Below are positions 2,943 through 16,532 of a DNA stretch of 32,641 nucleotides, piece by piece (position 1 is the stretch's first letter; every line of letters starts with the position of its first letter). Location: the NCBI GenBank assembly GCA_031279015.1, contig JAITJI010000121.1:1-32641 (forward strand), read 5' to 3'. The notes under the pieces were generated by a model, which made no database searches, had not been told where the DNA came from, and was given only the letters and a program-made list of their open reading frames with translations. A program made the position numbers and the translations under genes. The DNA is from Spirochaetaceae bacterium (GTDB taxonomy: Bacteria; Spirochaetota; Spirochaetia; Treponematales; Breznakiellaceae).

Positions 2943-5099
2943 CTATTCCTTCTTGTTTCCGCCGGCGGCGGCTACGATCATTTCATCAATCAGGATGGCT
3001 CCGGTATTCACCACGAATCCTGCGGCGCCGGAATCATAGGAGGCATCCTTGGCTTCAAGGATACACACGTCATCAACAGACATGCTTAGCCGGGTTCCCA
3101 CTGCTGAAAAACATATTTTGTGCCGGGAGTCAATACGATAGGCGCCGTCATACTCCGCCAGAACCGTCACATCCCCATCCTTCCGTTTGATGATCCGTCC
3201 GCAGGATCCGGCGATGATCGCCCCGTAATACCGCCGGTGTCCCCTGCTCCGCAGGACAATCCCGGCGCCCTGTTGTTGCATAAACGTAAGCGTCGAGGTA
3301 ACGGAATAATCCTTCCAGTCGGCGGAACCAATGGTTACCACCCCGTTTTCCGCCGGATGGGAAAGGGAAAATGTGGCGGTATAATCGGGATAAAAATTTT
3401 GGGCGCTGCTCATGAACATTTTAAGCCAGATGGTATCGGTGGTCCAGGGTGTCAGAGCCGGGGACATGACGAGGGACTTTCCCAATACAAAACGTCCGGG
3501 GGCGCCCTTCCAGTCCATAGAGCGGAGGACTACCGTCCCGTCCAGGCGGCGGGCCGACCGCAGTTCTACGCCGGTCCGGAAAATTGGAAACCCGCCGGTA
3601 TCGGGAAGCCGCCAGCTTAACCGGGTACAACCCTTACCCAGGGGCTGAAAGGCGCTGCGGGCGCAGAAAAGCCCTTCATCAGAATAATATTCAATGTAGA
3701 GGGCCCCTTCGCCCTGATCATCCGTCAAGCCCTGAATCTCGGCGGTAAGGGTCTGGGTGCCGTAGAGGCTTGGACTGGTCAGCACCTCAAAGTAACTGGT
3801 TCCATCCCTGCCCCTGGGCATAAGATCCGTGAAAGTCTCCACCGCTACCGAGGCGATTATCCCCGGTCCCAAATGGGCGTAATCTATCCTGAGGCCGGGG
3901 AAGCCAAGGCTGTCCCCGGCGTTTGAAATCGAACGGATCCCCTGGGCAAGTCCCTTCCCCGGATGTATCATAAAACCCTGAAGGCTGCCGGGATATTCAA
4001 AGCCGAAGCGGGGCCTGTCCGCGGACAGAGAAAACCCTTCATGAGGACGCCCCTCTTTTTCCGGCGCAAGAGCAAGGGCCATGTCCGTGATCCTGCGGGC
4101 CTCGATGACCGCATCGGAGATGCAGGAACCGCCGTCGGAACTAACCACAAAGAGCCGGTCGGCAACGGGACCGCGGAAATCCGCCCCCCCATCGATTCCC
4201 GCCAGGCCCAGCCGAATGCCGTTAAGGCATCCAACATTTCCCCCGTTGCAGTCCGTATCCCAGCCGGAGGAAACCGCGATGGAGAGGCTTTTTTGAAAAT
4301 CATCACCCCCCATTATCAGCGCCATGAGTACCACCAGGTGATTGGTAACCAGGGGACAGTTACCCAAATATGTATCATAGCCGTGGTGAAGGGCTATCCA
4401 GGAACGGGCATCCCGCCAGTCCCCTGACCGGGCGCACACCCCGGTAATTGTATCGGCCAGGCTTTTCAGGGTCTCATCTTTCACATAGCGCAGTCCTTCG
4501 GCGAGCAGCCTGTCCATCCGGGGCTCGGTAAAGGCCATCGCCTCCATGGACGCCAGATATACAGCGGCTTCCACGGCGATACCGTCGTGGCTTACCCGGG
4601 CGGCTTCCCGGGCGAAATATGCCGCCCTTTCCGGATTGCCGGGGTTTACCAGGGCCCAGGAATCGATAAAGATCTGGGCGCCGATCTGGGTAGCCATGGA
4701 CTCGCCGTTCAGGGCGATGCTGCCGCTTGCGGGAGCGGGGATTCCGTTTTTCAAGCGCAGATAGGCGGTATGTTCGGTGGATCGAGAAAGCCCGCCCCAC
4801 CAGAGAATAGTTTTATTTTCAATAATATAGTTCAGCCAGGCTTCACCAATAACCCCGCTTGAGATGGCGGGATCGCACCTTGAATCCTCCAGAGCCCGGA
4901 TAAAGGTAAAGGTTCCGGAAATATCATCATCCGGTATGACAAGGGGCGTCTTAAGATCGTCATTCACATAATAAGGGATCTCTCCGAATTGGGCCTTGAT
5001 CTTTTCATAGGGCCAGCCTTCAACCGGCCTCCCCAGGTACACCCCGATGATCTTGCCCAAAACACCTGCGTATATTCTCTCGCGGATTGTATCGGTCAC
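2943..5099 (-). CDS. ADP-ribosylglycohydrolase-family protein with C-terminal beta-sandwich, copy B
   Basis: This 718-residue paralogue of the next gene has the same order of parts: an ARH catalytic region (about residues 5-345), a middle beta-rich region, and a C-terminal LamG-like region with DWKDYSVTSTL and GIVLRSRGHRRYYG. Metal motifs are IPDDDISGTF (D57-D59) and GWDTDCNGGNVG (D281, D283). The N-terminal regions of the copies are near-identical in blocks (YAGVLGKIIGVY, GRPVEGW, ILWWGGL, RSTEHTA), while the C-terminal halves have diverged more. The start is GTG at 5099, preceded at proper distance by AAAGGA overlapping the permease stop region; the permease ends 5 bases upstream. Retaining two full copies with all metal residues suggests different substrates or linkages, or a heteromer. 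This is inference. No export signal is visible, so it should act on material already imported by the ABC system. Confidence 0.9.
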   Translation of the reverse strand: MTDTIRERIYAGVLGKIIGVYLGRPVEGWPYEKIKAQFGEIPYYVNDDLKTPLVIPDDDISGTFTFIRALEDSRCDPAISSGVIGEAWLNYIIENKTILWWGGLSRSTEHTAYLRLKNGIPAPASGSIALNGESMATQIGAQIFIDSWALVNPGNPERAAYFAREAARVSHDGIAVEAAVYLASMEAMAFTEPRMDRLLAEGLRYVKDETLKSLADTITGVCARSGDWRDARSWIALHHGYDTYLGNCPLVTNHLVVLMALIMGGDDFQKSLSIAVSSGWDTDCNGGNVGCLNGIRLGLAGIDGGADFRGPVADRLFVVSSDGGSCISDAVIEARRITDMALALAPEKEGRPHEGFSLSADRPRFGFEYPGSLQGFMIHPGKGLAQGIRSISNAGDSLGFPGLRIDYAHLGPGIIASVAVETFTDLMPRGRDGTSYFEVLTSPSLYGTQTLTAEIQGLTDDQGEGALYIEYYSDEGLFCARSAFQPLGKGCTRLSWRLPDTGGFPIFRTGVELRSARRLDGTVVLRSMDWKGAPGRFVLGKSLVMSPALTPWTTDTIWLKMFMSSAQNFYPDYTATFSLSHPAENGVVTIGSADWKDYSVTSTLTFMQQQGAGIVLRSRGHRRYYGAIIAGSCGRIIKRKDGDVTVLAEYDGAYRIDSRHKICFSAVGTRLSMSVDDVCILEAKDASYDSGAAGFVVNTGAILIDEMIVAAAGGNKKE

Positions 5100-5103
5100 G
5101 GGA

Positions 5104-5943
5104 TTATCCTTTTACCGAACCGGCGATGAGCCCGTCGATAAACATCCGCTGTACACAGAGAAAGAAGATCAGCACCGGTACAATCAGGATCAGCGCACCG
5201 GCCATCATTACTCCCATGTTCAGGTTAAACACATGGTTCATAGATAGATAGCCCAGGGTAGCATTTCTGTTCTGATTCTGCAGGAACGTGGCCGTCAGAA
5301 GGTATTCATTCCAGGACATAAGGCCAACGATAATCGCCACCGTTATCAGTCCCGGAGAAACCACCGGAAGCATTACCCGGGTAAACACCTGCCACGATGA
5401 AGCCCCGTCAATCCGGGCCGCCTCCTCAAGTTCCTTGGGAATGCGCAGAAAAAAGGTTCGCATCAGGAATACTGCGGTAGGCATATACAGGGCCGCATGG
5501 AGGGCGCCGACAACATGCAAATTTCCCAGAAGCCGCAGTTTTGATAATGTCGAATAGAGGGTAAACATAAAGAGCTGTACCGGTATGGTCATGGCAACCA
5601 TAAAATAGACGATCAGCACCGGTACAATCCTTATCCGGTTTTTAGCCAGTACATAGGCCATGGTGGAGGAGCAGAAAAGAATAACAATGATCGATGTGCC
5701 GGTAAGGATTATGCTGTTGATAAATCCCTTGCCGAATTCTCCCCAGCGCCAGGCGCCCCTGAAATTTTCCATGTTCAGAAATACGGGAGGCGCCAGCGGG
5801 TTGGCTACGATGTCAACATGGCTCTTCATGCTGTTTATCATTACCAGATAAAACGGAGCGATGGCGATAATGGCAAAAAACAGCAAAATCAGATGATACC
5901 AGGAAAGCTTCCACCCTGTAGTGGATTTTATCGTTCCCCTCAT
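5104..5943 (-). CDS. sugar ABC transporter permease, MalG/carbohydrate type
   Basis: This 279-residue inner-membrane protein has about six hydrophobic segments, starting with LILLFFAIIAIAPFYLVMIN. The cytoplasmic EAA loop, which docks to the ATPase, is clear: EEAARIDGASSWQVFTRVML. The C-terminal GLIAGSVKG is typical of MalG-type permeases (binding-protein-dependent transport family 1). The ATG at 5943 overlaps the TGA of the preceding permease gene by four bases (ATGA), so the two subunits are translationally coupled. It should form the heterodimeric channel with that protein, fed by the binding protein at 6876-8306. No ATPase gene follows; the next genes are the hydrolases. The ATPase is probably a shared MsmK/UgpC-type protein encoded elsewhere or beyond the left edge. 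Confidence 0.95.
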   Translation of the reverse strand: MRGTIKSTTGWKLSWYHLILLFFAIIAIAPFYLVMINSMKSHVDIVANPLAPPVFLNMENFRGAWRWGEFGKGFINSIILTGTSIIVILFCSSTMAYVLAKNRIRIVPVLIVYFMVAMTIPVQLFMFTLYSTLSKLRLLGNLHVVGALHAALYMPTAVFLMRTFFLRIPKELEEAARIDGASSWQVFTRVMLPVVSPGLITVAIIVGLMSWNEYLLTATFLQNQNRNATLGYLSMNHVFNLNMGVMMAGALILIVPVLIFFLCVQRMFIDGLIAGSVKG

Positions 5944-6809
5944 TCCAATTCCTCCTTCCGGCTTAACCTGACATAGATGCTTGCGGCGATAAAGCCGAAC
6001 AGGGACATGATAAATGCCACCGAAGCCGCCTTCCCGGTCTGAAAACTTGTAAAGTAGACGTTGGCATAGGTACTCAGCATCTCCGTTGAACGGGCCGGGC
6101 CGCCGGCGGTCAGCAGGTAGACATAATCGAAGGTCATAAAGCTAAAAATAATGATCATGATAAACATCAGCTTCATGGTCATTTTGATGTTCGGATAATA
6201 AACATATCTGAATTGCTGCCAGAGGTTACAACCGTCAATGATCGACGCCTCAACCTGATCCGCAGAGGTTTGACGCATGGCGGCAAAGTATACCACCGTG
6301 AGGAATCCCCAATAATGCCACATATCAACTCCGGCGACAGCGTAGAGGGCGGTTTTCATGTTTCCCAATGGGGCATTGAGATTCCAGCCGTGGTTATTCA
6401 AAAATCCGACAAGTCCCGATATGGGGTTAAATATAATGTTCTGCCAAAGTAACGCATTGGTAACAGGCGCTAAAATATAGGGCATAATAAACACCGCCTG
6501 ATATGCACGGTAGGTCCTTTTTACCTGCAGCAGGAAAAATGAAGTAAGGAGGCCAATCAATACGGGGATAGTCAAAAACATGACGGTCCATTTTATGTTA
6601 TTGCCCAGGGCACGAAAAAATATTTCATCAGAAAAAATTTCCCTGAAATTTGCCATTCCGACAAAATTGTAATCCGAGGATACCCCGTTCCAGTCGGTAA
6701 AGGCATAGAAAAATGTCATAAACCCGGGAACAAGTATCACCGAGACGCTCAGGAGCAAGCCCGGCAACATAAAAATATAATCAGACGCCAACAGGATTTT
6801 TCTCTTCAC
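5940..6809 (-). CDS. sugar ABC transporter permease, MalF/UgpA type
   Basis: This 289-residue permease has six predicted membrane segments. It begins with the usual YIFMLPGLLLSVSVILVPG followed by a short periplasmic loop (FFYAFTDWNG), and carries the EAA-loop equivalent VEASIIDGCNLWQQFRYVYY. The start is GTG at 6809 with a strong GGAGGA about seven bases before it. It lies 66 bases after the binding-protein stop, and that gap contains a strong RNA hairpin. Its stop overlaps the start of the second permease. It belongs to the carbohydrate-uptake type 1 (CUT1) transporters, which typically carry oligosaccharides or glycosides. Together with the hydrolase genes this suggests uptake of a glycosylated small molecule. 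Confidence 0.95.
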   Translation of the reverse strand: MKRKILLASDYIFMLPGLLLSVSVILVPGFMTFFYAFTDWNGVSSDYNFVGMANFREIFSDEIFFRALGNNIKWTVMFLTIPVLIGLLTSFFLLQVKRTYRAYQAVFIMPYILAPVTNALLWQNIIFNPISGLVGFLNNHGWNLNAPLGNMKTALYAVAGVDMWHYWGFLTVVYFAAMRQTSADQVEASIIDGCNLWQQFRYVYYPNIKMTMKLMFIMIIIFSFMTFDYVYLLTAGGPARSTEMLSTYANVYFTSFQTGKAASVAFIMSLFGFIAASIYVRLSRKEELE

Positions 6810-6837
6810 CCTGAATTCCTCCGGAAAATCAAAGATA

Positions 6838-6863
6838 CCGGCAGCAGATATTTCTGCAGCCGG
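6838..6863 (-). other. intergenic mRNA hairpin between binding-protein and permease genes
   Basis: Two 11-base arms (6838-6848 and 6853-6863) are inverted repeats with a single A/A mismatch and a 4-base loop. There is no T-tract, so it is not a classical terminator. Hairpins at this place in binding-protein operons commonly protect the upstream message and reduce downstream expression, giving excess binding protein over membrane subunits. That role is inferred here. Confidence 0.7.
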
Positions 6864-6875
6864 AAACCGGCGTAG

Positions 6876-8306
6876 TTACCTTGCGCCATTGGGCGCCGGA
6901 ATACCCGGTATGGATCCCCGGGCGGCATCCTTCTGATATTCGGCGGCAACATTCCTAAGAAATTCCTCAGCCGTCTGATCCTTTAACCAAACCCGTTCAA
7001 TGTCGATAAGCGCGGCCTGGGTCAGGGGCGGATAAAAGGTGGAGATGTGAATACCGAAATTACCGGAGGCAACCGACCGGTACATTTTCTGTATGGTTGA
7101 AACAAACTCAAGGGAAAGGGAGCTAAACCCGGAGGTATCGGGATTGAACTCATTCAGGGGTACGGCCCAATATCCGGGCCACACCCGCGCAAGGCTTTGG
7201 GCAAAAGCGGAACTCATCATCATGTCCATTATTTTGGCTGCCTCATCGGCATGCTTGCTACCCGACCAGATTGAAAATGAATTCACAACCCCCAAGACAT
7301 AGCTTTGGGTGGGAATGGATGGATCCATGGGAAATACGGTGAATCCAAGGTTTTCCGTCTTGTTTCCCTGGAAATAGGTATTCATAAACTGGAATGCCAG
7401 GGAGGGCCCCACAAAAAATGCGGCCTTGTCGTCGGCTAACAGTTGGCAGGATTCGGCAAAATTCAAGTTGGGATAATCAATAACCAGGGTTTCGTTGAGT
7501 ATGTGGCCGCCTCCAAGATACCCCTTCTGATACCATTCGGCGGACTTGTTTACCGCTTTTACAAATTCCGCATCGGTAAAGGCCTTCTGTCCGTTTACCG
7601 CCTTATACACATTTTCCGGTCCTGCGACGGCATTTAGAAAGATGGTTGAATAGTTTTCATTCACCGGTTTCCAGCCCTTGTTGCCGGTTACCGACGCGTA
7701 GTATCCGTTTTTCAATGCCGCTTCCATAAACCGTTCAAATTCCGCGATGGTTGCGGGAACGCCCCTGGGCAGGGAGGGATCCTTTGCACGGAGATCGTTG
7801 AGAACTTTTTTATTGTAGAATACCCCCATGGTGACGGTCCCGCCGGGGAGACAGTAGAGTTTACCGTTCACCTTGCCCGCCTCATAGATCGCCGGCATGA
7901 TCCGCTCAATCCATCCGTACCGGGCGGCATAGGGGGTCAGGTCAAGCAGTTTCCCTGCCTGGGCATATTGGGAAACAAAGGCAGGTCCCGATCCGTAGAC
8001 GATGTCCGGGGCGTTTCCCCCATCCGCGGCTAATGCGGTAGCGATATTGTTATCCACCGCGTTGTCATAAGAAACAACCAGTTCATAGGTATCCTGGGAC
8101 GCATTGTAGGGCTTTACAAGGGCCTCTTCCAGTACCATCCGGTATTCAGGAGCGGCGCCCCAAAACCACATGGTAATCTGTTCCCGGCCTGTCTGCTGTC
8201 CTCCCCCATACAGCGGGGGCGCATACAGCGGAAACACAAACAGAGCGGCGGCAAAAACCAGAAACGGCCCGGACCACATCAAAAAACGGCTTTTGTTTTT
8301 CATCAT
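6876..8306 (-). CDS. extracellular sugar-binding protein of ABC transporter (SBP family 1)
   Basis: This 476-residue protein is the first gene of the leftward operon. It has a basic N-terminus, a hydrophobic core (GPFLVFAAALFVFPLYAPP) and then mature sequence beginning with ITMWFWGAAPEYRMVLEEAL, typical of bacterial family 1 solute-binding proteins. The body has the usual features: APDIVYGSG near residue 90, LYCLPGGTVTMGVFYNK, and the FFVGPSLAFQFM region. The signal region has no lipobox cysteine, so it is predicted to be soluble in the periplasm or anchored by an uncleaved segment rather than lipidated. ATG at 8306 follows AAGGAGG at good spacing. It delivers substrate to the two downstream permeases. 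Ligand identity cannot be read from sequence; the downstream hydrolases suggest a ribosyl or similar glycoside. Confidence 0.93.
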   Translation of the reverse strand: MMKNKSRFLMWSGPFLVFAAALFVFPLYAPPLYGGGQQTGREQITMWFWGAAPEYRMVLEEALVKPYNASQDTYELVVSYDNAVDNNIATALAADGGNAPDIVYGSGPAFVSQYAQAGKLLDLTPYAARYGWIERIMPAIYEAGKVNGKLYCLPGGTVTMGVFYNKKVLNDLRAKDPSLPRGVPATIAEFERFMEAALKNGYYASVTGNKGWKPVNENYSTIFLNAVAGPENVYKAVNGQKAFTDAEFVKAVNKSAEWYQKGYLGGGHILNETLVIDYPNLNFAESCQLLADDKAAFFVGPSLAFQFMNTYFQGNKTENLGFTVFPMDPSIPTQSYVLGVVNSFSIWSGSKHADEAAKIMDMMMSSAFAQSLARVWPGYWAVPLNEFNPDTSGFSSLSLEFVSTIQKMYRSVASGNFGIHISTFYPPLTQAALIDIERVWLKDQTAEEFLRNVAAEYQKDAARGSIPGIPAPNGAR

Positions 8307-10725: not shown

Positions 10726-13700
10726 ATGTTAAAATTAAAGATATCTTATGCGGTCATAAACCTTGCCCTGGTTTTGGCGTTTTTTCTTCCGGTTCTTCCT
10801 TCGGGGGGCGCGGCGGAACCCAAGTCTCCTGCCGGCGCCGATGTGGTACCGGATCTCTATTCACCGGTTTTTGCCGGAGGCGGAGGATTCAGCACTTCCA
10901 CGGGGGGGGCGCCGGCAAGCGCGATAAACCCCGCAGCCGGCGGGGGAGCCCAGCGCATCGTCTTTGACGTGGGGTATCTGGGGTTGACCACCTTTGGCGG
11001 TGAATTTAACTGGGGCAATGTCCTCGAACTGGGGACCCTCTTTCCAAGCAAATTCGCAACATTCGGCGGTTCCCTTCATTTAATACATAGTCCCTTTGGC
11101 GCTTTTCCGGTAAAAACCAACTTTGACGGTAACCTCAACATTGCCAAGGAACTCTACCCGGGTTTGGATATTGGATTGGGTTTCAACTTTGGTTTTGGAG
11201 AGGGAGAAAATAATTGGTCCGCATCGGGGGATCTGGGCTTCCGCTACAATATTGGCAACCTGGCCCGTCTGGAGAATTTTACCCTGGGCTTTGTGATGAA
11301 AAGCATGGGGAAAAGCTGGACCCCCACCGCCTTTAGCCCAACCCTTGGGTTCTCCACAGATTTTATCCATTTACGGAGTAATGGGGATACGGCAGACCCC
11401 CTTAAGGTAACGGGATTCCTGGACTTTAGCGTCCCGGGTTTTCAAAATTTTACCGGCAAGATCGGCGCCGCGGTAGTCCTGGCGGAAGTTGCCACCATTT
11501 CCGGGGCCTGGGGGTTCAATGTTAACGATATGCGGAACAACATAGCCCCCTTCCTGCCATCCCTGGGGCTTTCCCTCAACTTTGTTCTCAAATCCGGAGG
11601 TAAACGTATCATCGGCGGCAAGCTCCCCTCAGACGGGGATCTGGGTATCGCCATGGCCTTGAAGCCCCTGTACAGCGGCATCACCGGTATCGGCGCCGGA
11701 CTCACCTGGTATGTGGGGGTCACGGATAAAACCCCTCCCTCCATTGTGGTAGACTATCCTAAAACCCTCTGGATCTCCCCCAACAACGACGGTATTGCGG
11801 ATGCTCTGGAATTCCCCCTGAGGATCTACGATCAGCGTTACGTTACCGAATGGGTTTTTGAGATCAAAAACGAATATGGCGAGGTGGTACGGACCTACCG
11901 GAACAAGGAGATCCGCCCGGAAACCCAGGGGGTCAAAAACATCTTTATCCGGCTGGTGATGGTTAAATCCGGGGTGGAGATACCCCCAAGCCTCCGCTGG
12001 GACGGGACCTTCGATTCCGGGGAAACCGCCCCCGATGGCAGCTATTTCTTCACCGTCAGCGCTTCCGACGATAACGGCAACACGATCAGTACCCTGTCCT
12101 ATGAGGTGGTGGTGGATAATACCCCCCCGGATGTTGAGATAGCCGAAATTTCTGAAAGCGCCAGAATATTCTCCCCCGACGGAGACGGCAACAAGGATGC
12201 CATCGATATCGGTCAATCCGGTTCCCGGGAAGAAGTTTGGAATGCGGGGATCTACGATGCCGAGGGAAGGCAGGTTAAAACCTTTGCCCTGTCCGATACC
12301 GAACCGGTCTCCCTGGTCTGGGATGGCGCCGATGACGACGGGTTAATCGTACCGGACGGGGTCTACGGATACCGGATCACCGCTACCGACCGGGCGGGCA
12401 ACACCGGGCAGGCGGCCCTTGACAACATCATCATCAGTACCATTCAGCCGGTAGTCAGCCTCTCCATTGGTGACGCCTATTTCTCCCCCAACGGTGACGG
12501 GATCAAGGATACGGTAACCCTGAATCCCGGCGTACCGGTCAGGGAAGGCGTCGTGGGCTGGGAGATAAACCTCAGGGATACCCGGGGCAGTGTCCTGCGG
12601 ACCATCACCGGGGGAAGTTCCGCCGGACCGGCCGCAGCCCCGCCGGAACAGCTTGATTTTGACGGCAGGAATGACAACGGAACGATCCTGGCGGAGGGGA
12701 TCTACAGCGCGGCGCTGTCGGTACGGTACCGGAACGGCTACGTGTCCACCGCCTATTCACCCGCCTTTACCCTGGACGTAACCCCCCCCGCCGCTTCCGT
12801 CCGGGCGGCCTATACCGCCTTCTCCCCGAACAACGACGGGCAGCAGGATGAGATGATCATCACCCAGGAAGGATCCAATGAAGCGGCATGGCTGGGTACG
12901 GTTCGCCGTTCCGCCGCTCCCGCCTCCGAACAGCCGGTCAGAACCTTCCGCATTGCCGGGGTTCCGGCTTCCCCCCTCATCTGGGATGGCCTTAACGGCG
13001 CCGGGGCTCTTGCCCCCGACGGGGAGTATAGCTATGAACTCAGCGCCACCGATCAGGCTGGAAATACCGGCCAGTCCAATACGATTCGCTTTAGCCTGAG
13101 CACTGCGGATACCCCGGTGCTCCTCTCCACGGATGTCCGGGCTTTCTCGCCGAACAATGACGGTTCCCGGGACAACATCACCATCATACCTCAGCTACAG
13201 CTTAACCAGGGCATCGCTTCATGGAAGCTGGACATCCTCGACGCGACGGGTAACCCCGTCCGGACCTTTGAGGGCCAAAACACGGTTCCCGGTTCTATTC
13301 CCTGGAACGGGCGGACCAGCGCTAATTCTGTTGCTCCGGACGGTACCTATTCAGCCCGGATAGATCTGCGGTACACCATGGGGAACCAGCCCGCCGCGGT
13401 AAGCCGGCCTTTTGTCCTGGATACGGTTCCTCCCAAGGCGGAGCTTTCGACTCCCTTTACCCTCTTCTCCCCCAACGGCGACGGTCTCAAGGATTTTGTG
13501 CCCATCAGCGTCGTTACCGAAGGGAATGATGAATGGCATGCGGAGATAAGCAATTCCCGGGGAAATACGATTCGATCCTGGAACTGGACCGGTTCCGCCC
13601 CGGCTCTGGTTTGGGACGGCACCGACACGGTGGGCAACAATGTACCCGACGGAACCTATCGGCTCACCCTGGTTTCCACCGATGAGGCGGGGAACAGCTT

Positions 13701-14838
13701 CCGCAAAACCGTGGACAACATCACCGTAGACGCCCGGATTCCCCGGGTCTTCCTGACCTCCTCCGGTTCGGGCATCGCCCCCCGGGACAACACAAGCGCC
13801 GGAATCCGGCTGGGAACCGTCATCTCCCTTAAAGAGGGCATCGAGTCCTGGAAACTTGAGTTACGCTCGGATCCGGGTTCCACCGGGCCCGGCGGGGTCC
13901 TCCGCAGCTTCCCCGAGGGGGACAACTGGACCCCGGCGCCTCCGGAGACCGTCAACTGGGACGGCAGGGATGCCTCGGGGATGGTTAAGGAGGGGACTTA
14001 TACCCCGGTATTGACCCTCACCTATACCAAGGGGGATGTGGTCACCGCCCAGGCGGGGCCTGTCATCGTAGATGTTTCCGGTCCGGAGCTCAGTTTCAGT
14101 TCCCAGCCGGAATTCTTCAGTCCCGACAACGACGGGGTGGATGATGAACTCATCATGTCCCTGGGAGTCCGGGACGTTTCCCCCATCGCCAACTGGAGTC
14201 TGGAGATCAGCGAGGTTCAACTTGACAGCCAGGGCAGGGCTGCGGGTTATTCGTCCTTCTACCGGATAGAAGGCCGGGGCAGTCCGGCGGAACGGCTCGT
14301 CTGGGACGGCCGGAGCAACAAAACCAAGAGTTCCGGCGGCGAACTGGTGCAGGCCGCCACCGATTATCCCTTTGTCTTTAAGGCGGCGGATATTCTGGGC
14401 AACGAATCCACCCTGGAGGGCAAGATCGGGGTTGACGTCCTGGTGATTCGGGACGGCGATCTCCTGCGGATACAGATACCCTCCATCGTCTTCCGGGCCA
14501 ACGAGGCGGACTTTATCGGCCTTCCCCAGGCAGTGGTGGAGAATAACAACCGGATCCTCAGGCGCATTGCCGAGATCCTCAACAAGTTCCGGGACTACCG
14601 GATCCAGGTGGAGGGCCACGCCAACCCGGTTACCCGCACTGCAACAGAAGAGACCAACGAACTCCAGCCCTTAAGCGAACGCCGGGCCAGGGCGACGGTA
14701 GATTTCCTCGTCGGTTTCGGGGTCAACCGCAGCCGCCTCTCCTCGATAGGCATGGGGGGAAAGCGGCCGATAGTCAAATACGAAGACCGGGACAACTGGT
14801 GGAAAAACCGGCGGGTGGAGTTTATCCTGATCAAGTAG
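10726..14838 (+). CDS. large outer-membrane protein: barrel-like N-terminus, eight Ig-like repeats, OmpA C-terminus
   Basis: This 1370-residue protein starts with a signal peptide (hydrophobic NLALVLAFFLPVLPS, cleavage near residue 30). Residues about 32-330 are rich in alternating aromatic/Gly strands and contain SAINPA, resembling the PorV/FadL-like outer-membrane barrels (UPF0164) of treponemes. Eight Ig-like units of FlgD/gliding-associated type follow. Seven carry an SPNxDG-type acidic motif, beginning near residues 350, 482, 586, 699, 807, 914 and 1131; one near 1016 has lost it. Most units also contain WDG...PDGxY and DxAGN. The C-terminus (about 1255-1370) is OmpA-like, ending NRRVEFILIK-style. 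In that region the Asp that binds diaminopimelate is replaced (GHAN, N1300), while the Arg of SERRA (R1320) is kept. It probably links the outer membrane to the cell wall and displays or spans a periplasmic stalk. AAAGGAT precedes the ATG. Confidence 0.9.
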   Translation: MLKLKISYAVINLALVLAFFLPVLPSGGAAEPKSPAGADVVPDLYSPVFAGGGGFSTSTGGAPASAINPAAGGGAQRIVFDVGYLGLTTFGGEFNWGNVLELGTLFPSKFATFGGSLHLIHSPFGAFPVKTNFDGNLNIAKELYPGLDIGLGFNFGFGEGENNWSASGDLGFRYNIGNLARLENFTLGFVMKSMGKSWTPTAFSPTLGFSTDFIHLRSNGDTADPLKVTGFLDFSVPGFQNFTGKIGAAVVLAEVATISGAWGFNVNDMRNNIAPFLPSLGLSLNFVLKSGGKRIIGGKLPSDGDLGIAMALKPLYSGITGIGAGLTWYVGVTDKTPPSIVVDYPKTLWISPNNDGIADALEFPLRIYDQRYVTEWVFEIKNEYGEVVRTYRNKEIRPETQGVKNIFIRLVMVKSGVEIPPSLRWDGTFDSGETAPDGSYFFTVSASDDNGNTISTLSYEVVVDNTPPDVEIAEISESARIFSPDGDGNKDAIDIGQSGSREEVWNAGIYDAEGRQVKTFALSDTEPVSLVWDGADDDGLIVPDGVYGYRITATDRAGNTGQAALDNIIISTIQPVVSLSIGDAYFSPNGDGIKDTVTLNPGVPVREGVVGWEINLRDTRGSVLRTITGGSSAGPAAAPPEQLDFDGRNDNGTILAEGIYSAALSVRYRNGYVSTAYSPAFTLDVTPPAASVRAAYTAFSPNNDGQQDEMIITQEGSNEAAWLGTVRRSAAPASEQPVRTFRIAGVPASPLIWDGLNGAGALAPDGEYSYELSATDQAGNTGQSNTIRFSLSTADTPVLLSTDVRAFSPNNDGSRDNITIIPQLQLNQGIASWKLDILDATGNPVRTFEGQNTVPGSIPWNGRTSANSVAPDGTYSARIDLRYTMGNQPAAVSRPFVLDTVPPKAELSTPFTLFSPNGDGLKDFVPISVVTEGNDEWHAEISNSRGNTIRSWNWTGSAPALVWDGTDTVGNNVPDGTYRLTLVSTDEAGNSFRKTVDNITVDARIPRVFLTSSGSGIAPRDNTSAGIRLGTVISLKEGIESWKLELRSDPGSTGPGGVLRSFPEGDNWTPAPPETVNWDGRDASGMVKEGTYTPVLTLTYTKGDVVTAQAGPVIVDVSGPELSFSSQPEFFSPDNDGVDDELIMSLGVRDVSPIANWSLEISEVQLDSQGRAAGYSSFYRIEGRGSPAERLVWDGRSNKTKSSGGELVQAATDYPFVFKAADILGNESTLEGKIGVDVLVIRDGDLLRIQIPSIVFRANEADFIGLPQAVVENNNRILRRIAEILNKFRDYRIQVEGHANPVTRTATEETNELQPLSERRARATVDFLVGFGVNRSRLSSIGMGGKRPIVKYEDRDNWWKNRRVEFILIK

Positions 14839-14933: not shown

Positions 14934-14967
14934 CCGGGGTGCGGACAGGATCCGCGCCCCGGGTTTT
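14934..14967 (+). terminator. intrinsic terminator after OmpA-like gene
   Basis: Twelve-base arms (14934-14945 and 14951-14962) pair with one G-U, with a 5-base loop, followed by G and TTTT (14964-14967). It lies about 95 bases after the stop of the rightward gene. Confidence 0.65.
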
Positions 14968-15032: not shown

Positions 15033-16517
15033 CTATTCCGCCCAACTCAGGCTTCTCCCCACCGCCTTGTGCCAGCCCGCAAGCAGGGCCGTCCGTTTCT
15101 CCTCTCCCATGAGGGGACTGAAGATCCTGTCGCACCGCCATTTTGTCCTGACCTCCTCAAGGCCCTGCCAGAATCCCGTGGCGATCCCTGCGAGGTATGC
15201 GGCCCCCAGGGCTGTGGTTTCCCGGATAACCGGCCGGTGGATATGGCCGTTCATGATATCCGCCTGAAACTGCATCAAAAAGGCATCCCTACAGGCGCCG
15301 CCGTCAACCTTGAGAGCCTCAATTCTGGCCCCCGTATCCTTTTCCATGGCCCGGACCAGGTCAAGGCACTGGTAGGCGATGGATTCCTCCGCCGCCCGGA
15401 TGATATGGTACCGTTTGGTACCCCGGGTAATCCCCACAAGGCAGCCCCGGGCATACATGTCCCAGTGGGGGGCCCCCAGACCGGTAAAGGCCGGTACCAG
15501 GTAGACCCCGCCGGTGTCAGCAACCTTTCCCGCGTAATACTCGGCGTCGGCGCTTTCGGTGATAAACCGCATCTCGTCCCGAAGCCACTGGATCACGGCG
15601 CCCCCCACAAAAACGCTCCCCTCCAGGACATACTGCGCCCGGCCGGTCAGGCCCGCCGCCACGGTGGTCAGGAGACCGTTCCGGCTTTCACAGGGCTCAT
15701 CTCCGGTGTTCATCAGCAGGAAGCAACCCGTACCGTAGGTATTTTTCGCTTCCCCCGTGCTGAAACAGCACTGACCAAAGAGGGCCGCCTGCTGATCCCC
15801 CGCAGCGGCGGCAATGGGAATATCGGTCCCCTGGATGTTGGTGGCGCCGTAGATCGAACCGGAGGGCCTAACCTGGGGCAGACAGGCAGCAGGGATATCC
15901 AGGGCTTCAAGAAGGGCATCATCCCACTTGAGGGTATGGATGTTAAAGATCATGGTCCGGCTGGCATTGGTATAATCGGTAACGTGGACCGCCCCATTGG
16001 TCAGCTTCCAGATAAGCCAGGAATCCACGGTGCCAAAGAGGATCTCCCCCCGCCGGGCCCGTTCCCGCGCCCCCTCCACATGGTCAAGGATCCACTTGAT
16101 CTTGGTCCCCGAAAAGTAAGCGTCCGGGATCAGACCCGTGGTCTTTCGTATATGGTCTTGAAACCCCTCTTTTACCAGAGCGTCAACAATTTCCGCAGTA
16201 CGCCGGCACTGCCACACGATGGCATTGTAAATGGGACGCCCCGTCTGCTTATCCCAGAGAATAGTGGTCTCCCGTTGATTGGTAATACCGATAGCAGCGA
16301 TTTCCCCCGCGGCCACATCCCGCTGGGTGAGAAGTTCCATCATCACCGCATACTGGGATGAGTATATCTCCATGGGATCATGTTCAACCCAGCCTTCCCG
16401 GGGATAGATCTGGGCGAATTCCCGCTGGGCGCTCCCGATTATGTTCTGATCCCGGTCAAACAGAATGGCCCGGGAGCTGGTGGTCCCCTGATCCAGAGCC
16501 AAAATATACTTACCCAT
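15033..16517 (-). CDS. glpK: glycerol kinase
   Basis: This 494-residue FGGY-family kinase phosphorylates glycerol to sn-glycerol 3-phosphate with ATP. It has the phosphate-1 motif [14 protein letters not shown] at residues 8-21, the glycerol-binding GITNQRETT (R82, E83), VWQCRRT, the central [13 protein letters not shown] with the general-base Asp, and the FGGY signature region near [13 protein letters not shown]. The length matches the family's usual 495-505 residues. The frame is open to a TTG at 16520, but the ATG at 16517 has AAGGAGG at ideal spacing and is chosen. The gene is monocistronic as seen: no glycerol facilitator or glycerol-3-phosphate dehydrogenase lies beside it. The upstream leader has an extended -10 promoter and a compact GC hairpin. 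The family assignment is secure. Confidence 0.97.
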
Positions 16518-16532
16518 CAATTTCCTCCTTGT

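Follow-up and report, generated by a model that had tools for sequence, protein, structure and literature searches.

Genes and features at the locus

The window analysed here, a stretch of 32,641 nucleotides from the genome of a Spirochaetaceae bacterium, holds a gene coding for a predicted barrel, a stalk of Ig units and an OmpA-like end in one chain, which we call the tether gene after the role proposed for its product below. Its parts and the features that follow it are listed here by position in the window.

10726..14838, + strand: tether gene (barrel-Ig-OmpA), a single frame of 1370 aa without internal stop
10726..10815, + strand: putative Sec signal peptide (residues 1-30), identified by eye in the sequence
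10927..10935, + strand: NPA motif, residues 68-70, ahead of the barrel and like the FadL hatch motif (33-member alignment)
10957..11715, + strand: predicted 14-stranded outer-membrane beta-barrel, residues 78-330 (AlphaFold2, Foldseek)
11731..14391, + strand: Ig stalk, eight units of the FlgD type, residues 336-1222 (Pfam and motif positions; boundaries approximate)
14395..14835, + strand: OmpA-like C-terminal domain, residues 1224-1370 (Pfam, AlphaFold2, Foldseek)
14623..14625, + strand: N1300, codon AAC, at the position of the diaminopimelate (DAP)-binding Asp (D271 of A. baumannii OmpA)
14647..14652, + strand: E1308-E1309, acidic pair in the pocket loop (E in 71/78 and 76/78 family sequences)
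14683..14685, + strand: R1320, counterpart of R286 in A. baumannii OmpA (R in 78/78)
14934..14962, + strand: terminator-like hairpin 3' of the tether gene, 12 pairs, 10 of them G-C
15033-16520, - strand: glycerol-kinase-like ORF 3' of the tether gene, named from its sequence start DQGTTSSR and not from a profile

A chance open reading frame or an artefact was ruled out by a sequence search, in which full-length relatives belonging to the same family were 54-67% identical across almost the whole protein. Its neighbours on the 5' side code for a regulator of the GntR type and for an aldo/keto reductase that includes a 4Fe-4S domain. On its 3' side, the long + strand ORF at 15069-16361 was rejected as a neighbour gene; it lies antisense to the glycerol-kinase-like ORF and is probably not a gene. 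As the terminator counts around the tether gene show no excess over shuffled sequences, the support for the hairpin as a terminator is the strength of its stem. By its look, the tether gene would be monocistronic. Elsewhere in the window, two ADP-ribosylglycohydrolase-family genes lie in tandem on the - strand (813-2942 and 2943-5099), adjoined by a sugar-type ABC transporter (5104-8306).

A predicted barrel followed by an Ig stalk

AlphaFold2, run with ten relatives included, modelled the N-terminus with 14 strands at residues 78-330 (mean pLDDT 73.5, pTM 0.68). Foldseek with this model matched OmpG, PorV of the type 9 translocon and FadL/TodX/TbuX with E values of 1e-5 to 1e-3, at modest TM-scores of 0.30-0.43 by query length. 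An earlier note on this DNA had proposed a PorV/FadL-like barrel at this end and had named structure prediction as the check on it; the 14 strands and the matches, PorV and FadL among them, agree with this proposal. Sequence and profile searches against Pfam and PDB gave no match of the N-terminal barrel to a known barrel family, and the FadL (Toluene_X), UPF0164 and PorV profiles matched none of 33 members at E values up to 1. In the alignment of these 33 members, Asn and Pro of the NPA motif are invariant and Ala is present in at least 90%. NPA is characteristic of the hatch in FadL-like barrels, those of T. pallidum included (PMC8407342). The strand count and the conserved NPA would fit a FadL-type fold, but the confidence of the model is moderate and the TM-scores are low. 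Between families, barrel identity drops to 24-33%.

For the stalk, Pfam FlgD_ig gives seven stretches (E 3e-45), and reading by motif places eight units at residues 350, 482, 586, 699, 807, 914, 1017 and 1131, the seventh of which (residue 1017) is degenerate; the eight FlgD-type repeats of the earlier note were therefore found, one of them in degenerate form. Matches to CHU_C and TIGR04131 sit on the Ig units and were taken as a shared Ig-like fold, and T9SS membership was rejected. Four Treponema MAG loci (L008, L010, L011, L012) carry a shorter version of the protein, of about 945-957 aa, with approximately half of the Ig stalk.

An OmpA-like end with an altered DAP site

The OmpA-like nature of the C-terminus, read from the sequence earlier, is borne out by three lines of evidence. 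Pfam OmpA (PF00691) matches residues 1273-1357 (E 2e-11) with 44.6 bits, above the gathering score of 27.2; the AlphaFold2 model has the expected OmpA fold (pLDDT 80.7); and Foldseek matched it to PA0833, MotB, YiaD, OprF and Tp0624 (5jir), with E values down to 4e-11.

In A. baumannii OmpA, the binding of DAP requires both D271 and R286 (PMC6572160). The exchange of this Asp for Asn (N1300), with the matching Arg (R1320) kept, was confirmed, with AAC as the codon of residue 1300. The protein departs from the DAP-binding pattern TD(x)7NxxLSxxRA in that Asp is replaced by N1300 and Asn by L1313, while Arg is kept as R1320. Across the order of the window's genome, 78 distinct family sequences carry N (75), V (2) or H (1) at residue 1300; the GH motif, the LSxxRA helix, the Arg and the Glu pair hardly vary among them. 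The corresponding residue is V or A in the other families of the class, N in families f10, f23 and f36, and D, together with the canonical Asn and Arg, in most other Spirochaetota families.

The genome of the window also encodes a lipoprotein paralogue (L003:892-1824, + strand, contig C64) with a lipobox LGC, a proline-rich linker and one Ig unit, whose OmpA end is 61% identical to that of the tether protein and carries GHAN. With one Ig unit and the same OmpA end on a lipid anchor, this paralogue represents a use of the module with a second type of anchor. At two further loci (L009, L017), a 351-aa lipoprotein-like Ig-OmpA ORF (- strand) with GHSN lies near the tether gene on the opposite strand.

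Distribution of fused and split forms

Relatives were found in 195 of the 197 genomes sampled from the order, some as partial matches only, and full-length relatives in families f1 to f5. A profile built from 75 barrel domains recovered this N-terminus from fused proteins of approximately 860-1480 aa in many other Spirochaetota families (E 1e-81 to 1e-5). Since the matches of this profile span the phylum, fusion is probably the ancestral state and is not unusual; the earlier view of the fusion as unusual is wrong for Spirochaetota, and within its own clade the tether gene is an ordinary member of its family. In distant members the Ig and OmpA parts are the most alike, and the barrel less so. 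Searches of plasmids by tblastn gave weak Ig and OmpA matches only.

In the fetched set, 21 loci carry a split form, in which the barrel and the Ig-OmpA part are separate neighbouring genes, mostly in family f3 with a few in f1. In all 21 the barrel gene comes first and the Ig-OmpA gene lies downstream on the same strand, with an overlap or gap between the frames of less than about 90 bp. The cut falls at the domain boundary, and a separate leader is present in the second gene, which begins at the first Ig unit.

Outside the class, three genomes (G221, G199, G241; loci L158, L228, L226, L237) hold two Ig-OmpA proteins each, a long form of about 1345-1359 aa and a short form of about 836-906 aa. 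Several genomes of the set presumably belong to described species: we take G013 to be T. pallidum Nichols, G016 T. primitia, G043 T. azotonutricia, G012 T. caldarium, G304 Brachyspira murdochii, G202 Spirochaeta thermophila and G314 S. africana. The search of G013 (1,139,633 bases) gave no clear member of the tether family. A search of the open literature, partial in coverage, found no paper on this barrel-Ig-OmpA family. Three things seem to be new: how widely the architecture occurs, that it also exists in a natural split form, and that the Asp has gone from the outer-membrane anchors of this clade and stayed in MotB.

Loss of the Asp and the type of MurE

MurE adds the third residue of the peptidoglycan peptide, and its motif was used as a proxy for the diamino acid of the peptidoglycan. 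All 49 MurE sequences read from the order carry DEDPR or NEDPR, as do those of other families of the class; PEDPR is present in f10, NDDLY in f23 and NDDTY in f36, and most other families carry DNPR. The DEDPR type is common to the window's genome (L074), the genome taken as T. pallidum Nichols (L044) and a Borrelia-like genome (L191). MurE at L252 and L253 (f23) and L290 (f36) combines NDDLY or NDDTY with GTKGKT and differs from both the DNPR and the DEDPR types. DNPR is the motif of DAP-adding MurE enzymes (PMC3681970). In the literature, the peptidoglycan is assigned to the ornithine type for Spirochaetaceae, with Treponema, and Borreliaceae, and to the DAP type for Leptospirales (PMC3726837).

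In the comparison of OmpA loci, which are the best-scoring matches rather than a random sample and among which near relatives recur, the Asp was absent from 35 of the 36 other non-MotB domains of the non-DNPR clade (31 A, 2 N, 1 T, 1 G); the exception (L354, GHLD) was read by eye and counted as keeping it. Six genomes of DNPR-type spirochaetes kept the Asp in 19/20 non-MotB and 3/3 MotB-like domains. MotB-like domains in the non-DNPR clade kept it as well (14/14), including MotB of the window's genome (L001). At least two families that are homologous outside the OmpA domain, the tether and Tpn50-like proteins, have D outside the clade and N or A inside it, and for a third family the same shift from D is seen in one pair.

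The earlier note had suggested that the exchange at residue 1300 could reflect a different cross-link chemistry. With MurE as proxy, one part of this idea stood: Asn is the rule in the order, and the contrast between 35/36 and 19/20 follows the type of MurE. In an RpoB tree of 50 genomes, obtained by a quick search, with three long branches and with f36 left out, the non-DNPR genomes form one clade, and the MurE trait changes once; with only one independent pair, the co-occurrence of MurE type and residue 1300 is not open to a statistical test. Counterexamples occur on both sides. Lsa66-like f13 proteins and f43 proteins lack the Asp in the presence of a DNPR-type MurE, and Tpn50-like proteins of Brachyspira-like genomes keep GHTD and the Asn. 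These genomes form an independent lineage and have been described as ornithine type (PMC3726837). Because MotB and the Brachyspira-like proteins keep the Asp, its loss is no simple consequence of ornithine. Ornithine is without the second carboxylate that DAP has, and therefore a loss of the Arg, rather than of the Asp, might be expected.

We consider it somewhat short of an even chance that the protein is a tether whose loss of the Asp had nothing to do with the diamino acid, i.e., that a one-time change in several anchors of the clade, caused for example by differences in the glycan or by a shift to D-Glu binding, was then inherited. The single independent event, the Asp retained in MotB and Brachyspira-like proteins and the Asp-less Lsa66-like and f43 proteins of DNPR type all agree with such a history. 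However, two or three families changed in the same clade with differing replacements, which a shared change of ligand fits better than separate drift. A link between the loss of the Asp and the diamino acid is partly supported. The idea itself is not new: it has been proposed for Tp0624, which has Ala in place of the Asp and did not bind DAP (PMC5104382), and published for BpiP of Borrelia, which has Glu for the Asp and binds the Borrelia wall but not the E. coli wall (PMC8092773). A more far-reaching version is possible, albeit doubtful: when the third peptidoglycan residue changed in Spirochaetia, the outer-membrane OmpA anchors might have been retuned together and MotB not, each reading different parts of the wall. 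The retuning, held here just as tentatively, might then have been from Asp to Asn in the barrel-Ig-OmpA tether and from Asp to Ala in Tpn50-like proteins.

A proposed tether between the outer membrane and peptidoglycan

We propose, with a probability of roughly 0.7, that the protein ties the outer membrane to peptidoglycan as a tether, and that its pocket most likely suits a wall built with a diamino acid other than DAP, probably ornithine. After Sec export, the 14-stranded FadL/PorV-like barrel would insert into the outer membrane, and the eight Ig units would form a periplasm-spanning stalk of about 30 nm (at roughly 4 nm per unit), comparable to the space occupied by the periplasmic flagella. 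The OmpA domain would then grip the peptidoglycan through a pocket that, in this clade, has Asn for the DAP-binding Asp and retains the Arg and the Glu pair, and whose ligand may be the wall with ornithine. This reading draws on the order and folds of the domains, the phylum-wide architecture, the adjacency of all 21 split loci, the lipoprotein paralogue and the invariant R1320; from the architecture we infer the location in the outer membrane and the binding of the sacculus. The DEDPR-type MurE of the genome, the ornithine type of Spirochaetaceae and Borreliaceae and the binding of BpiP to the Borrelia wall point to the ornithine-type ligand. Against the reading as a tether stand the moderate confidence of the barrel and its lack of a sequence match to a known barrel family.

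The NPA motif conserved in 33 members, the 14 strands and the FadL/TodX/TbuX matches would also suit a barrel that is mainly a FadL-type nutrient channel, merely held in place by the stalk and the OmpA end. This is improbable, as it is the Ig and OmpA parts that are most alike in distant members, the barrel having only 24-33% identity between families, and the module is also found without a barrel (L003). Quite unlikely, lastly, is an OmpA end that no longer binds peptidoglycan, its Asn reflecting decay or a newly gained function, for instance protein-protein contact, and the barrel and stalk doing the work as, e.g., a porin or surface scaffold: the D-N-R triad has lost its Asp as well as its canonical Asn and Tp0624, without the Asp, did not bind DAP (PMC5104382), but the near-invariant Arg, GH motif, LSxxRA helix and Glu pair in 78 sequences argue for a pocket under constraint, and BpiP without the Asp still binds its own wall (PMC8092773).

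As a tether, the protein would likely provide the chief physical connection of the outer membrane to the cell wall in many spirochaetes, and it can be compared in nature as one gene and as two. The set of proteins is suited for asking how OmpA domains recognise walls free of DAP, and why MotB keeps the old site.

Comparison with known systems

The predicted barrel resembles those of FadL/TodX/TbuX and PorV in strand count and Foldseek matches, and that of FadL also in the NPA motif, but differs in having no Pfam or PDB sequence match and TM-scores of only about 0.30-0.43. Lsa66 of Leptospira (LIC10258, NCBIfam NF053608), investigated as a host-matrix-binding protein (PMC3130794), shares an OmpA-like end preceded by Ig units (E 1e-92, residues 853-1368); it is only about 600 aa long and has no barrel, and the tether protein, with 311.2 bits against a curated cut-off of 700, falls outside Lsa66_OmpA (NF053608). 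Tp0624 and TP0292 (Tpn50) of T. pallidum and BpiP (BB_0167) of Borrelia likewise have an OmpA-like domain in which the DAP-binding Asp is replaced, in their case by Ala or Glu and in the tether by Asn, but they have neither a barrel (PMC8407342) nor an Ig stalk. OmpA/OprF-type proteins share the general plan of a barrel anchor and a C-terminal OmpA domain with the conserved Arg; theirs is a barrel of 8 strands, whereas the tether combines a predicted 14-stranded FadL/PorV-like barrel with eight intervening Ig units and an OmpA end without the DAP-binding Asp.
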